Below are positions 2,968 through 6,783 of a DNA stretch of 8,468 nt, one piece after another. Where the stretch lies: the NCBI GenBank assembly GCA_028287415.1, contig JAQBPS010000616.1, forward strand, positions 1 to 8,468. The letters are read 5' to 3'. Positions within the stretch are counted from its first letter, which is position 1. Each line of letters begins with the position of its first letter. The stretch is from Bacillota bacterium. Lineage in GTDB: Bacteria > Bacillota > Sulfobacillia > Symbiobacteriales > Symbiobacteriaceae. The notes under the pieces are model-generated. The model ran no database searches and was not told the DNA's origin. It was given only the letters and a program-made list of their open reading frames with translations. Position numbers and translations under genes: made by a program.

Positions 2968-3522
2968 ATGTCTTTTTCCATCGAGTACGCCCGCCATCTG
3001 ATTCTCAGCTACGGCGCCCTCGGGCCCCTGGCGGTCATCGGGCTGTATGTTGTGCACTCCTTCATCCCCTTCCCCGCCCAGGTCCTGACCTTTGCCGTCG
3101 GCGCGGTGTATGGGCCTGTGTGGGGAACGCTCCTGGTCTGGGCGGGTGTCGTGGCGGGGGCGCTGGCGGCCTTCGGGGCGGCCAGGCTGGGCGGGCGCCG
3201 GCTGGCAAAGCGATTCGTGCCTGCAGGGCGCCTGGAGCAGTTTGACGTCTGGGTAGAACAACATGGCGTCGGAGCCCTTCTGTTCGGACGCGTCATCCCA
3301 TTTTTCCCGGTCGCCCTGATGAACTTTGCCGCAGGGCTGGCCCATGTTTCCTGGCAGAGCTTCGCCTGGACAACCGCGGTGGGCACCTTGCCGATGATCA
3401 TCGTTGAAGTGATCGCCGCCGACCAGCTGCGTCACGGGAATCCGGTGGGGCTCTGGCTGATGGGAGCCCTGCTCATGCTGGGGGGGCTCATCTGGCTGCT
3501 ACAACGGAGGCGTATCGCGTGA
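2968..3522 (+). CDS. TVP38/TMEM64 family membrane protein (DedA superfamily)
   Basis: The 184-aa integral membrane protein starts at ATG 2968, 7 nt after GGAGG (2956-2960). It has the two hallmark segments of the TVP38/TMEM64 (SNARE-associated, VTT-domain) family. The first is IPFPAQVLTFAVGAVYG at residues 33-49, followed by a glycine/alanine-rich helix and AARLGGRRL. The second is GRVIPFFPVALMNFAAG at residues 107-123, followed by SFAWTTAVGTLP (131-142), with the conserved R108, P111, P114, N119, G123 and G139. A last hydrophobic helix (about 160-178) ends in RRR. Family members are implicated in lipid transport or scrambling and membrane homeostasis; the substrate cannot be read from sequence. 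It is a single-gene unit whose 3' end overlaps a convergent gene remnant by 24 bp. Confidence 0.88.
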   Translation: MSFSIEYARHLILSYGALGPLAVIGLYVVHSFIPFPAQVLTFAVGAVYGPVWGTLLVWAGVVAGALAAFGAARLGGRRLAKRFVPAGRLEQFDVWVEQHGVGALLFGRVIPFFPVALMNFAAGLAHVSWQSFAWTTAVGTLPMIIVEVIAADQLRHGNPVGLWLMGALLMLGGLIWLLQRRRIA

Positions 3523-3785: not shown

Positions 3786-3817
3786 CCGGGCGCACAGTGA
3801 CAAGCGTATTTGTGGTA

Positions 3818-3869
3818 ACCGATTGTGTAGGTCCAAGCATATAGTGACCTAGGGGGACGAACCCCAGGG
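3818..3869 (+). promoter_or_regulatory. Leader of gene A1: SigK/SigE-like promoter plus 5' hairpin
   Basis: AC (3818-3819), an 18-nt spacer, then CATATAGT (3838-3845). This resembles mother-cell sigma factor promoters (sigma-K: AC, about 16-17 nt, CATAnnnTA; sigma-E also uses a CATA-type -10). No good sigma-A -35 hexamer is present. About one helical turn downstream, CCTAGGGG / CCCCAGGG (3848-3855, 3862-3869) closes a GACGAA loop, with one A-A mismatch. The 3' arm merges into the G-rich ribosome binding site of the gene at 3882. Confidence 0.45.
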
Positions 3870-3881
3870 GGGTGCTAAATA

Positions 3882-4088
3882 ATGAGTGTTGATAAGGACC
3901 AGCTAACGATTCAGGAGGCCGTCGCACAGGAGGCCCGGCTGCTGTCTTACAGCGGCAGCGGCTACAGCGGCTCCAGGCGCCGTCGCCGCAACAACGTGTG
4001 GGTCAGCGTGTCGGTTTCCGTCGACAACCGTCGTCGTCGTAGTCGCCGGTTTAGTCGGCGTAGTCGTCGTAGTCGGCGCTACAGCTAA
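3882..4088 (+). CDS. Small Arg/Ser/Tyr-rich protein, type A (copy A1)
   Basis: 68 aa, with the start fixed by the G-rich SD and by conservation with copy A2. Residues 1-21 (MSVDKDQLTIQEAVAQEARLL) form a conserved acidic, probably helical head. A short Ser/Gly/Tyr linker (SYSGSGYSGS) follows, then RRRRRNN and a beta-like alternating stretch (VWVSVSVSV). The tail is made of RS/RR units ending in SRRSRRSRRYS. Eighteen of 68 residues are Arg. There is no signal peptide or membrane segment. Compared with A2, differences are in-frame and several are synonymous, which supports translation. The composition resembles CotG-like spore coat proteins with Ser-Arg/Lys-Tyr repeats, and the promoter fits, but sequence homology is not claimed. 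A RiPP precursor or nucleic-acid binding protein are alternatives. Confidence 0.7.
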   Translation: MSVDKDQLTIQEAVAQEARLLSYSGSGYSGSRRRRRNNVWVSVSVSVDNRRRRSRRFSRRSRRSRRYS

Positions 4089-4112
4089 GGGCTTAAACCC
4101 AGCCCGCCAGTA

Positions 4113-4153
4113 GCAGACCCCCGCCCTCTGCGTGATGCAGGGCGGGGGCCTGC
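4113..4153. terminator. GC-rich hairpin after gene A1
   Basis: CCCCCGCCCT (4118-4127) pairs with AGGGCGGGGG (4139-4148). Outer GCAG/CTGC pairing is interrupted by one A-C mismatch. It lies about 30 nt after the A1 stop codon and just before the leader of B1. No T-run follows, so it is either an atypical terminator or an intercistronic stabilising stem. Confidence 0.6.
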
Positions 4154-4168
4154 GCCGCGTATCGCCGT

Positions 4169-4216
4169 ACCCAATTGTGGAATACCAGCATAGAGTCAGC
4201 CGGGGGACAACCCCGG
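4169..4216 (+). promoter_or_regulatory. Leader of gene B1: SigK-like promoter plus 5' hairpin
   Basis: AC (4169-4170), 18 nt, CATAGAGT (4189-4196). Downstream, CCGGGG (4200-4205) and CCCCGG (4211-4216) form a perfect 6-bp stem around a GACAA loop, followed by a G-rich SD. The sequence is clearly related to the type A leaders but diverged. A T-A pair next to the GGGG core in type A (A2) is C-G here, which is a compensatory change. Confidence 0.45.
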
Positions 4217-4230
4217 AGGGGGGTTAGAGA

Positions 4231-4401
4231 ATGGGTGTTGAGAAGGATGAAGTGACCAGGAGCACCGGCAGCACCGCCAGCAGGAGCTCCCGCAGCGGCC
4301 GACGCAGTCGCCACAACAATGTGCGGATCAGCGTGTCGGGTTGGGTCGAAGACCGCCGTCATCGCGGGCGCCGTCGCACGACCGACCGGACGGGCAGCTA
4401 A
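4231..4401 (+). CDS. Small Ser/Arg-rich protein, type B, short form (copy B1)
   Basis: A 56-aa frame with ATG 4231 behind GGAGGGGGG. It starts MGVEKDEVT and ends VEDRRHRGRRRTTDRTGS. Against copy B2 it aligns end to end except for one clean in-frame loss of 33 residues after position 9. The loss removes most of the conserved IQEAVAREA head and part of the SYSR repeats; the join sits in short CAGGAG-type homology. The core SGRRSRHNNVRISVSGWVEDRR is retained. The intact frame, SD and leader suggest it is still expressed. Without the acidic head it may behave differently from its relatives, or be on the way to decay. The function guess is as for the other array members. Confidence 0.6.
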   Translation: MGVEKDEVTRSTGSTASRSSRSGRRSRHNNVRISVSGWVEDRRHRGRRRTTDRTGS

Positions 4402-4420
4402 CCCCGGTGATGACTGCGTA

Positions 4421-4531
4421 CACCACACGCCGGGCGCACAGCGACAAGCGTATTTGTGGTAACCGATTATGTGAGTCCGAGCATATAGTGACCTTGGGGG
4501 ACGAACCCCGGGGCGGTGTTGCTCTGGACCA
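4421..4531 (+). repeat. Orphan leader: promoter and hairpin without a gene
   Basis: A complete type A leader is present: AC at 4462-4463, 18 nt, CATATAGT at 4482-4489, then CCTTGGGG (4492-4499), loop GACGAA and CCCCGGGG (4506-4513), an 8-bp stem counting G-T pairs. No small gene follows. After 111 bp the same sequence starts again (4532) and leads to gene A2. It is a tandem leader duplication. If active, it would give an additional longer transcript start for A2 or a short leader RNA. Confidence 0.7.
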
Positions 4532-4573
4532 CACCACACGCCGGGGGCACAGCAGCCAAGCGTATTTGTGGTA

Positions 4574-4625
4574 ACCGATTATGTGAGTCCAAGCATATAG
4601 TGACCTTGGGGGACGAACCCCAGGG
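4574..4625 (+). promoter_or_regulatory. Leader of gene A2: SigK/SigE-like promoter plus 5' hairpin
   Basis: AC (4574-4575), 18 nt, CATATAGT (4594-4601). The hairpin CCTTGGGG / CCCCAGGG (4604-4611, 4618-4625) pairs along 8 positions with one G-T, around loop GACGAA. The 3' arm overlaps the start of the SD GGAGGTG (4624-4630), which is 7 nt from ATG 4638, so folding could reduce ribosome access. Confidence 0.48.
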
Positions 4626-4637
4626 AGGTGCTAGATA

Positions 4638-4850
4638 ATGGGTGTTGAGAAGGACCAGCTAACCATCCAGGAGGCCGTCGCACAGGAGGCCCGGCTGCTG
4701 TCTTACAGCGGCAGCGGCTACAGCGGCTACGGCTCCAGGCGCCGTCGCCGCAACAACGTGCGGGTCAGCGTGTCGGTTTCCGTGGACAACCGTCGTCGTC
4801 GTAGTCGCCGGTTTAGTCGGCGTAGTCGTCGTAGTCGGCGCTACAGCTAA
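4638..4850 (+). CDS. Small Arg/Ser/Tyr-rich protein, type A (copy A2)
   Basis: 70 aa, behind a perfect GGAGGTG SD. It is nearly identical to A1: S2 becomes G, D4 becomes E, one Trp in the VWVSV stretch becomes Arg (VRVSV), and a YG pair is inserted in the Ser/Gly/Tyr linker by a 6-bp in-frame insertion. Other DNA differences are silent. The layout is the same: acidic head (GVEKDQLTIQEAVAQEARLL), SYSGSGYSGYGS linker, five arginines, NNV-x-VSVSVSV, then RS/RR units ending in RRYS. The protein is strongly basic overall and has no export signal. It precedes B2 and is separated from it by a perfect GC hairpin and B2's own leader. Confidence 0.72.
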   Translation: MGVEKDQLTIQEAVAQEARLLSYSGSGYSGYGSRRRRRNNVRVSVSVSVDNRRRRSRRFSRRSRRSRRYS

Positions 4851-4875
4851 GGGCTTAAACCCAGGCCCGCCAGTA

Positions 4876-4916
4876 GCAGGCCCCCGCCCTCTGCGTGATG
4901 CAGGGCGGGGGCCTGC
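4876..4916. terminator. Perfect 15-bp GC hairpin after gene A2
   Basis: GCAGGCCCCCGCCCT (4876-4890) is the exact reverse complement of AGGGCGGGGGCCTGC (4902-4916), with an 11-nt loop. It corresponds to the hairpin after A1 but without the mismatch. No T-run follows; it sits between A2 and the B2 promoter. Confidence 0.65.
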
Positions 4917-4931
4917 GCCGCGTATCGCCGA

Positions 4932-4978
4932 ACCAATTGGGTAGTAGCAGCATAGAGTAAGCCGGGGGACAACCCCGG
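4932..4978 (+). promoter_or_regulatory. Leader of gene B2: SigK-like promoter plus 5' hairpin
   Basis: AC (4932-4933), 17 nt, CATAGAGTA (4951-4959): of the five leaders this is the closest match to the sigma-K pattern, including the final TA. The stem CCGGGG (4962-4967) / CCCCGG (4973-4978) encloses GACAA. A G-rich SD leads to ATG 4993. Confidence 0.5.
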
Positions 4979-4992
4979 GGGGGTGGTAGAGA

Positions 4993-5262
4993 ATGGGTGT
5001 TGAAAAGGATGAACTGACGATCCAGGAGGCCGTCGCACGGGAGGCGCAGATCCTGGGCGACTCCAGCGGAACCAGCACCGGCAGCAGCTACAGCAGGAGC
5101 TACAGCAGGAGCTACAGCAGGAGCACCGGCAGGAGCTACAGCAGGAGCTCCCACAGCGGCCGACGCAGTCGCCGCAACGATGTGCGGATCAGCGTGTCGG
5201 GTTGGGTCCAAGACCGCCGTCATAGCCGGCGCCGTCGCACGACCGATTGGAGCGGGAGCTAA
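4993..5262 (+). CDS. Small Ser/Arg/Tyr-rich protein, type B, full form (copy B2)
   Basis: 89 aa. The head MGVEKDELTIQEAVAREAQIL is shared with type A. A Ser/Thr/Gly stretch and SYSR tetrapeptide repeats (from 12-bp DNA repeats) follow, then SGRRSRRNDVRISVSGWVQD and a basic end RRHSRRRRTTDWSGS. The segment R-R-N-[ND]-V-x-[VI]-S-V-S is common to both types and looks like a short beta strand flanked by arginines. The Ser-Tyr-Ser-Arg repeats recall CotG-type coat proteins, whose serines are phosphorylated by CotH kinases; that link is inference. Its TAA overlaps the livF stop codon on the other strand (4 bp shared). Confidence 0.75.
   Translation: MGVEKDELTIQEAVAREAQILGDSSGTSTGSSYSRSYSRSYSRSTGRSYSRSSHSGRRSRRNDVRISVSGWVQDRRHSRRRRTTDWSGS
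5086..5145 (+). repeat. 12-bp tandem repeats encoding SYSR in gene B2
   Basis: AGCTACAGCAGG occurs three times in a row (5086-5121), then a variant AGCACCGGCAGG (5122-5133), then one more perfect copy (5134-5145). Each unit encodes Ser-Tyr-Ser-Arg. Such a tract can change length by slippage in steps of four residues without shifting the frame. Confidence 0.85.
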
Positions 5263-6017
5263 CCCGGGGGGTGACTAACCCCCGCCCTCTGCTTATCGAG
5301 GGCGGGGGCTCCGCGCCCCCCCAGGTACGCGGCAATCACCCGCGGGTCCCGCGCCAGCTCCTCCCCCGCCCCCTCCAGGGCCACCTTCCCAGTCTCAAGT
5401 ACATAAGCGTAGGTAGCCATCGCCAGCGCCTGCCGCGCATTCTGCTCCACCAGCAGCACCGTGGTCCCGCCCCGGTTGATCTCAACCACCAGGTCCAGCA
5501 CCTCCTTCACCACCAGCGGCGCCAGGCCCATCGACGGCTCATCCAGCATCAGCAGCCGCGGGCGGGCGATCAGCGCCCGGCCCATGGCCAGCATCTGCTG
5601 CTCGCCGCCCGACAGCGTGCCCGCCAGCTGCGTGCGCCGCTCCGCCAGGCGGGGGAAGCGGCCCCAGACCTGCTCCAGATCCGCCTTCACCCCTGCGGCA
5701 TCCCGACGACAAAACCCGCCCATCAGCAGGTTCTCCGCCACCGTCATCCGCGCCAGCACCTGACGCCCTTCCGGCACCTGCACCAGGCCCGCCCGGACCA
5801 CCTTGTCCGCACGCAGTCCGCCGATGGCCTTCCCCGCGAAAGTAATCGTCCCACGCGTGGGCTTCAACAGGCCGGAGATCGTCCGCAGCGTGGTCGACTT
5901 GCCCGCGCCATTCGCCCCGATCAGGGCCACGATCTGCCCCGCCGGCACTCGCAAATCGATGCCCTTTACCGCTGCGATCGCCCCGTAGTGGACGTGCAGG
6001 CCTTTAACCTCGAGCAT
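5259..6017 (-). CDS. livF: Branched-chain amino acid-type ABC transporter ATPase LivF
   Basis: 252 aa ATP-binding subunit that powers import through the LivHM channel at the inner face of the membrane. The start is ATG 6017, with AGGAGGTG just upstream; an upstream extension of the frame has no such support. Motifs: Walker A GANGAGKST (34-42), Q-loop Q80 in VQVPEGRQ, signature LSGGEQQ (135-141), Walker B LLMLDEP (155-161), and the family-typical LLVEQN after it. LivF proteins normally end soon after AYLGG (here residues 230-234). This one continues 18 residues (RGAPALDKQRAGVSHPPG) encoded by the terminator hairpin and the end of B2, so its original 3' end was probably replaced. The livG stop codon lies one base upstream of the start, implying one transcript. 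The substrate may be amino acids or related compounds such as amides or urea. Confidence 0.92.
   Translation of the reverse strand: MLEVKGLHVHYGAIAAVKGIDLRVPAGQIVALIGANGAGKSTTLRTISGLLKPTRGTITFAGKAIGGLRADKVVRAGLVQVPEGRQVLARMTVAENLLMGGFCRRDAAGVKADLEQVWGRFPRLAERRTQLAGTLSGGEQQMLAMGRALIARPRLLMLDEPSMGLAPLVVKEVLDLVVEINRGGTTVLLVEQNARQALAMATYAYVLETGKVALEGAGEELARDPRVIAAYLGGRGAPALDKQRAGVSHPPG
5279..5308. terminator. GC hairpin between gene B2 and livF (bidirectional)
   Basis: CCCCCGCCCTC (5279-5289) pairs with GAGGGCGGGGG (5298-5308) around an 8-nt loop. It begins 16 nt after the B2 stop codon. On the minus strand it lies inside the last codons of livF. It shares its stem sequence with the hairpins after A1 and A2. 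No T-run is present on either strand. Confidence 0.6.
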
Positions 6018-6018
6018 G

Positions 6019-6783
6019 CTAACCCACCTCCTGGCCCAGGTAGGCCACCACAACATCCGGGTTCTCGCGGACCGCGTCCGGAGTCCCCAGCGCAATGCGC
6101 TTGCCGAAGTTCAGCACCGCCAGCCGGTCGCAGACCGACATCACCACATGCATGTCATGCTCAATCAGCAACACGGCAATGCCCAGCTCCCGGATCTTGC
6201 CGACCAGGCGCAGCAGATCCTGACTCTCGGACTCGTTCATCCCGGCCGCCGGCTCATCCAACAGCAGGAGTTTCGGCTCCGTCGCCAGCGCCCGGGCAAT
6301 CTCCAGCCGGCGTTGCAAGCCATAAGGCAACGAGCCCGCATCCACATCGGCCACTTCGCTCAGGCCGGCAAACTCCAGCAGCGCCAACGCCCGCGCAGCC
6401 GCCGCCCGCTCCTCCCGCCGCTGGGCAGGTGTGCGGAGCAGCGACGCCACCAATCCGCTGCGCAGTCCGCTATGGCACCCCACGAGCACGTTGGTCAGCG
6501 CCGGCTGGTCCCCGAAGAGCCGGATGTTCTGGAACGTGCGGGCCAGCCCCAACTGCGTGCGCTGGTGGGGTTTCAGCCGACCGAGGTCCCGCCCGTCAAA
6601 ACGCACCCGCCCATCGCTGACCGGCACGAGGCCCGTCACCGCGTTGAACGCCGTCGTCTTGCCGGCGCCGTTGGGGCCGATCAGCCCCACCACCTCGCCC
6701 GGTTCCACCGTCAGGTTCAGCTCGCTGACCGCCACGAGGCCGCCAAAGCGCACCGTCACCTTCTCCATCGCCAGGAGACTCAT
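6019..6783 (-). CDS. livG: Branched-chain amino acid-type ABC transporter ATPase LivG
   Basis: 254 aa, the second ATPase of the importer. ATG 6783 overlaps the livM stop codon (ATGA), a sign of translational coupling. Motifs: Walker A GPNGAGKTT (36-44), Q-loop Q85 in ARTFQNIRLF, the LivG-specific signature LPYGLQRRLEIARAL (152-166), Walker B LLLLDEP (172-178) with the typical AAGMN after it, and the H-loop in LLIEHDM (H209). The C-terminus ...VAYLGQEVG is normal for the family, as is the length. The frame extends further upstream but only inside livM. It should pair with LivF to form the nucleotide-binding heterodimer. Confidence 0.94.
   Translation of the reverse strand: MSLLAMEKVTVRFGGLVAVSELNLTVEPGEVVGLIGPNGAGKTTAFNAVTGLVPVSDGRVRFDGRDLGRLKPHQRTQLGLARTFQNIRLFGDQPALTNVLVGCHSGLRSGLVASLLRTPAQRREERAAAARALALLEFAGLSEVADVDAGSLPYGLQRRLEIARALATEPKLLLLDEPAAGMNESESQDLLRLVGKIRELGIAVLLIEHDMHVVMSVCDRLAVLNFGKRIALGTPDAVRENPDVVVAYLGQEVG

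Follow-up and report, generated by a model that had tools for sequence, protein, structure and literature searches.

An alternating array of small Ser/Arg-rich genes in a Symbiobacterium relative encodes candidate CotG-type spore-coat proteins

Very short Ser/Arg/Tyr-rich genes set one behind another, each with a leader of its own, raise the question of what their products do and why they stand in tandem. We analyzed such an array on contig JAQBPS010000616.1 (8,468 nucleotides (nt), referred to here as the window; contig C252 of the host assembly G000, which comprises 4.12 Mb in 822 contigs and is 77.8% complete). A sequence-only reading had described four short frames of two alternating related types in this window and had suggested a CotG-type spore-surface family. 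Our analysis shows the array to be a duplicated two-gene unit, with three of the four genes behind a leader that matches a sigma-K/E-type promoter, and makes it probable that its products are small basic CotG-type spore-coat proteins, predicted to be substrates of CotH.

Layout and promoters of the array

Four short frames were confirmed among the open reading frames of the window, namely A1 (68 amino acids (aa)), B1 (56 aa), A2 (70 aa) and B2 (89 aa), and the alternation of two related types was borne out by both the frames and the direct repeats. These repeats span A leader and gene (188 nt, 91% identity, spacing 756), the A gene (156 nt, 94%, spacing 762) and the B gene (159 nt, 89%, spacing 861). 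Because A1/A2 and B1/B2 are direct-repeat copies, the A-B-A-B order is, on the repeat pattern, a tandem duplication of one A-B unit. The indels within each pair are in-frame, as had been noted, all being multiples of three (6 nt for A1 vs A2, 99 nt for B1 vs B2). A fifth A leader, gene-less and absent from the earlier description, suggests the trace of a further, incomplete duplication.

The claim that a near-identical leader precedes each gene did not hold, as the leaders fall into an A type and a B type with a common core. All four leaders share CC-x-ATT, GCATANAGT, a GGGG/CCCC hairpin, a purine-rich ribosome-binding site and the ATG. The sigma-K consensus is given as [a/c]AC[a/c] N16 CATA N3 TA (PMC5749712), and sigma-E and sigma-K promoters are described as having a common -10 (PMC517825). 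B2 matches the consensus in full, 33 nt before its ATG. A1 and A2 deviate from it by one mismatch and a spacer longer by one base (N17), 35 nt before the ATG; the orphan A leader likewise has one mismatch and N17, and two mismatches were counted by eye for B1. With at most one mismatch in three of the four genes, the leaders appear to carry a mother-cell (sigma-K/E-type) promoter. The host assembly holds 8 perfect sites (backward control, 5), and the chance of one of these lying in the 100 nt upstream of any of the four starts is approximately 4e-4. A search of the window for sigma-70 promoters found none.

Across five genomes, it was the placement of perfect sites only that was enriched: 16/31 lie before a frame start (including 4 of the host's 8), against 10/45 for permuted motifs in the other loci (Fisher p = 0.008; p = 0.04 without B2 and three sigK sites). 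Fifteen loci (3 from the host, 12 from its family) were also fetched for their cotH, sigma and spo0A genes, L061 and shorter copies being left out. A relaxed motif (N16-17, TA or TG) occurred 8 times in these loci, in every case ahead of a frame whose start has a run resembling a ribosome-binding site, whilst 47 permuted motifs gave means of 0.96 hits and 0.21 hits before a start in the same loci (maxima 5 and 3). Behind the 8 sites are three sigK genes, one cotH (with GCATAGAGTG, nearly the B box), one Ser/Arg repeat gene and three others, labeled by eye as two sugar nucleotidyltransferases and one acyltransferase. The motif lies 26 nt before sigK in 3/3 genomes of a sister genus, and in another relative it precedes a cotH as well as a Ser/Arg repeat gene. 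On contig C200 of G002, a genome of the host's family, it stands 52 nt before the start of the Ser/Arg repeat gene. Perfect sites in G002 precede a cell-wall hydrolase (PF07486 over cut-off, SleB model below cut-off) and a protein with a weak match, below cut-off, to the BMQ_0737 coat family.

Further perfect sites (L090, at G000:C312:258-286; L110, L114 and L100) stand before small or repetitive frames that are candidate coat proteins in their own right. These frames are Gly/Pro/Tyr-rich, Ala/Tyr-rich, Cys/His/Asp/Arg-rich and Met/Gly/Pro-rich, and the Met/Gly/Pro-rich one contains a rubrerythrin domain.

GC-rich hairpins follow three of the genes (A1, A2 and B2), as had been seen, and none follows B1. 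On folding, 3/3 of these stretches were more stable than all 200 shuffles; hairpin-plus-T-run terminators were sought in the window, with 0 sites found.

Sporulation genes of the host and the CotH link

The host is a relative of Symbiobacterium in the same order as Caldinitratiruptor; endospore genes are reported for Caldinitratiruptor microaerophilus, which is related to Symbiobacterium (PMC9933637). The Spo0A C-terminal domain (Spo0A_C) was found in 5/5 genomes of the family, the host included. The SigK model scored over its cut-off in 3/5, all of genus g2, with approximately 385 bits for the relatives' sigma-K and 255 bits for what we read as their sigma-E. CotH was found in 8/41 genomes searched (4/5 in the family vs 4/36 others), and the host has two CotH genes, on contigs C431 and C596. 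The C596 CotH matches PDB 5jd9, "Spore coat protein H" (1.1e-59), and PF08757 (2.1e-59).

In Bacillus, CotH phosphorylates the Ser/Lys/Arg repeats of CotB and CotG, and the charge of CotG is described as balanced by this phosphorylation, which is required for CotG assembly (PMC7821199, PMC9765600). In the host, a 150-aa frame (G000:C596:24-476; L055) ends 96 bases upstream of the longest cotH frame, with 39% Ser, 25% Arg/Lys and a charge of +29. The longest string that it has in common with B2 is SRSYSRSYSRS, and 0/1000 shuffles of B2 reached 11 residues. Part of this cotH-adjacent protein is collagen-like (PF01391, 3.7e-7); some spore-surface filament proteins have collagen-like stretches. 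On G002:C200 (L058:4766-7414), genes for a Ser/Arg/Asp-tailed protein, a Ser/Arg repeat protein and a CotH that looks similar by eye stand in a row. The tailed protein has a DUF6897 domain (PF21838, 28.5 bits, cut-off 23.9), and the row is CotB/CotG/CotH-like.

Several results weigh against a coat role. The host assembly, 77.8% complete, yielded no sigma-K/E genes, the best SigK-model match having 72 bits, and no CotH match lies on the window contig itself. The common 11-mer is of low complexity and occurs in B2 only, residue shuffling being a lenient control, and for A1, A2, B1 and the two metagenome relatives P0001 and P0002 (see below) the longest string in common with the C596 protein does not exceed that of their own shuffles. 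With one mismatch allowed at N16, the window has the motif once vs 0.35 expected (61/200 shuffles with at least one), so that the weaker A-leader matches carry little weight by themselves. Perfect sites in the five genomes number 31 vs 28 for the backward control, so that there is no genome-wide enrichment in number; 15/31 precede no frame by our criteria, and some genes behind the others have no spore link. The 15 loci were chosen for the genes they hold and so do not sample the genomes at random, and the sites before the three sigK genes amount to one inherited site. The proposal of a CotG-type spore-surface family is partly supported: Spo0A, the two CotH genes, the placement in the order of Caldinitratiruptor, the B2 repeat beside cotH and the sigma-K/E-type promoter fit it, and the failure to find sigma-K/E genes in the assembly and the unenriched motif number limit the support.

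The proteins and their family

An alignment showed the columns M-x-V-x-K-D-x-x-T, R-R, N-x-V and S-V-S-x-x-V to be common to A and B proteins. The acidic head and core that had been ascribed to all four proteins are present in A1, A2 and B2, but the head of B1 is mostly gone, with MGVEKDEVT remaining. Between head and core, B2 and P0002 have a tandem-repeat middle (SYSR/SSYSRSTG), which is lost in B1; A1, A2 and P0001 have only a short Ser/Gly/Tyr stretch. The A-type tails are short Arg/Ser runs (RRRRSRRFSRRSRRSRRYS). Net charge is +14 for A1, +15 for A2, +9 for B1, +9 for B2, +13 for P0001 and +10 for P0002.

A1 and A2 differ by 6 changes (2, 0 and 4 at the three codon positions), with differences per silent site (pS) of 0.058 and per protein-changing site (pN) of 0.020. 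Between A2 and B2, pS is 0.40 and pN 0.24, protein-changing differences thus being rarer per site than silent ones. The B pair (pS 0.113, pN 0.105) has no silent-change excess and no sign of constraint. B1 looks like a decaying copy, because its head is mostly lost, its promoter is weaker, it has no 3' hairpin and pN is close to pS in the B pair. This weakens the suggestion that the array is kept in tandem for dosage or variation. Repeat number does vary between B2 and P0002.

Searching 5.8 billion proteins with A2 (12 candidates) gave P0001 (A type, 66 aa), and a profile search, in which the 7980 candidates that shared the most words with the query were scored, gave P0002 (B type, 101 aa, extra SSYSRSTG repeats). 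Both are single JGI metagenome proteins, on contigs of 3714 and 2202 bp. Among near genomes, 1/101 had a match, namely the host itself. In a profile search of 398 genomes of the phylum, with at most 13 candidates scored per genome among the matches listed, the host was the only convincing match (E down to 4.5e-32). Four non-host matches with E 0.004-0.007 were rejected, as about this many arise by chance for 398 genomes at E 0.01; the DNA was inspected for one of them (L119). Of the expectation that homologs would be confined to spore formers, it can be said that the convincing ones belong to the host, from a lineage with spore genes, and to two metagenome proteins of unknown host, and that nothing named at the outset as refuting was seen. 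With A2 as query, which picks up close relatives alone, none of 461 pattern matches in viral contigs and none of 595 in named genome contigs proved to be a relative.

No named family had been recognized at the outset, and none emerged: the four proteins had nothing over cut-off in Pfam or NCBIfam and no match in PHROGs, and the family profile had no match in PDB at E 1. Matches of B2 to Pfam (E 0.54) and to a serine-rich NCBIfam family (E 0.011; 13 of 650 bits) were rejected as composition. Rfam (E up to 1) gave sub-threshold matches only, the best in the array being isrG on the minus strand (23.2 of 100 bits, E 0.0048). Outside the array, a covariance model of the leader, run on the host and 4 family genomes with 150 candidates scored per genome, gave no convincing match (best E about 1). 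Searching the literature turned up no report of a tandem coat family rich in Ser/Arg, which is no proof of absence.

Homology is a poor guide to spore-coat proteins outside Bacillus, as they are fast-evolving and of low complexity. Here composition, promoter signature and genome context jointly point to an unnamed family in an uncultured lineage of high GC content, and suggest that the sigma-K/E promoter and the CotH/Ser-Arg module are recognizable there. Looking for small frames behind such a promoter could likewise yield lists of coat proteins for other members of the host's family.

Features of the array are collected in Table 1. Upstream the array is flanked by a VTT/DedA-family gene (2968-3522; PF09335), and on the other strand by a putative branched-chain amino-acid transporter operon, named by eye. 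The last transporter ATPase frame (5259-6095, minus strand) abuts the B2 stop, and its final codons, within 5259-5320 on the minus strand, run through the third hairpin, so that hairpin and coding end overlap. Elsewhere in the window, a 301-bp direct repeat (94%; 669-969 and 2480-2780, with internal palindromes at 825-869 and 2636-2680) brackets a 359-aa frame (1371-2450) whose N-terminus is helix-turn-helix (HTH)-like and which weakly matches phage homing/HNH endonucleases. More copies occur at G000:C754 (75%) and C10 (70%), and the repeat is possibly a mobile or dispersed element.

Table 1. Coordinates of array features in the window.
Feature	Position	Strand	Description
A1 promoter	3817..3846	+	-35 AACC 3817-3820, 17-nt spacer, -10 CATATAGTG 3838-3846; putative sigma-K/E type, 1 mismatch (consensus from PMC5749712)
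A1 leader hairpin (core)	3852..3865	+	between -10 box and ribosome-binding site
A1	3882..4088	+	68-aa Ser/Arg-rich protein: acidic head, RRNNVWVSVSVSV core, R/S-rich tail
Hairpin 3' of A1	4118..4148	+	GC-rich
B1 leader	4168..4216	+	weaker promoter, -10 CATAGAGTC 4189-4197; hairpin 4200-4216
B1 promoter, best fit		+	TACC 4168-4171, N17, 2 mismatches (by eye)
B1	4231..4401	+	56 aa, head deleted; probably decaying copy
Orphan A leader	4430..4518	+	no gene; promoter AACC 4461-4464, CATATAGTG 4482-4490
A2 promoter	4573..4602	+	AACC 4573-4576, N17, CATATAGTG 4594-4602, 1 mismatch
A2 leader hairpin	4604..4625	+	8-bp stem
A2	4638..4850	+	70-aa Ser/Arg-rich protein
Hairpin 3' of A2	4881..4911	+	GC-rich
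B2 promoter	4931..4959	+	perfect match to [a/c]AC[a/c] N16 CATA N3 TA
B2 leader hairpin	4962..4978	+
B2	4993..5262	+	89 aa: acidic head, SYSRS repeats, RRNDVRISVS core
Hairpin 3' of B2	5279..5308	+	GC-rich

Alternatives, proposed role and comparison with CotG

Given the Arg/Ser runs of the A tails and the charge of A1 and A2, the proteins might instead be nucleic-acid binders, protamine- or SASP-like sporulation proteins whose Arg-rich tails coat DNA or RNA. We consider this rather unlikely. The promoters appear to be of mother-cell rather than forespore type, and it is in the forespore that spore DNA is packed; the Ser/Tyr/Arg repeat of B2 is common to the CotH-adjacent frame. In addition, B1 and B2 reach a charge of merely +9, and neither a curated Pfam/NCBIfam match over cut-off nor a PDB relative was found.

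That the frames are accidents of a non-coding repeat or small-RNA array is very improbable, even though strong hairpins, repeated leaders and a B pair without silent-change excess would suit such an array. In-frame indels, purine-rich ribosome-binding sites, the lower pN than pS in A-B divergence, related proteins on two metagenome contigs and the lack of an Rfam family at gathering score all argue against it. Precursors of ribosomally made, modified peptides, with the constant head as leader peptide and the variable tail as core, are hardly credible despite the conserved head, variable middle and tandem copies, as the C-terminal core is conserved too, B1 is without the head, and no modifying enzyme or peptide exporter was recognized in the window, where the neighbors are a VTT/DedA protein, an HTH protein and a branched-chain amino-acid transporter, the last named by eye.

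If the products are CotG-type coat proteins, the array promoters would fire late in the mother cell. Transcripts would start a few bases past the -10 box, placing the leader hairpin at the 5' end, where it could protect or stabilize the mRNA. By analogy with CotG, CotH would phosphorylate Ser in the S-R/S-Y stretches of these small basic proteins, which may balance their charge of +9 to +15 as in Bacillus CotG, and the proteins would be laid into the spore coat. Docking or contact may then fall to the acidic head and to the core, N-x-V-x-[VI]-S-V-S, and the Ser/Arg/Tyr stretch may serve as a spacer whose length can vary.

More tentatively, and with some doubt on our part, the array might represent a CotH-substrate coat protein kept as separate promoter-driven minigenes rather than as one long repeat protein, and confined to one Symbiobacterium-side lineage. 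Promoter and gene would have been duplicated together, uncoupled from cotH, with internal elongation beginning in B2 and P0002. Each A or B gene would then stand alone as the kind of unit that, by gene elongation, is proposed to have given rise to CotG.

The array family resembles the G002:C200 row in its promoter motif, but the Ser/Arg repeat proteins of that row are longer and adjoin cotH, and G002 has no A/B-family match. The C596 150-aa protein is likewise basic and high in Ser/Arg and shares its 11-mer with B2; unlike the array family it has a collagen-like stretch, poly-Ser and a cotH neighbor, and no common head or core. In comparison with CotG and CotG-like proteins of Bacillus as described in PMC9765600 and PMC7821199, the array proteins are similarly basic and Ser-rich, with a low-complexity middle, short repeats (B2, P0002), predicted late mother-cell expression and a CotH kinase in the genome. 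They differ in size (56-101 aa vs 168-195 aa), in lying away from cotH, in being several genes with their own leaders rather than one gene with many internal repeats, and in their conserved acidic head and N-x-V-x-[VI]-S-V-S core, which the parts of these two sources available to us do not mention for CotG. CotG-like proteins have no primary-sequence homology among themselves (PMC9765600, PMC7821199), and their definition includes a modular structure with central tandem repeats and, in most members, positive charge (PMC9765600). The array proteins have the positive charge, and their genes do not have the organization of B. subtilis cotG, which adjoins cotH. Because the array lies away from cotH, we do not file its proteins as members of the CotG-like proteins, and regard them as CotG-like in manner.

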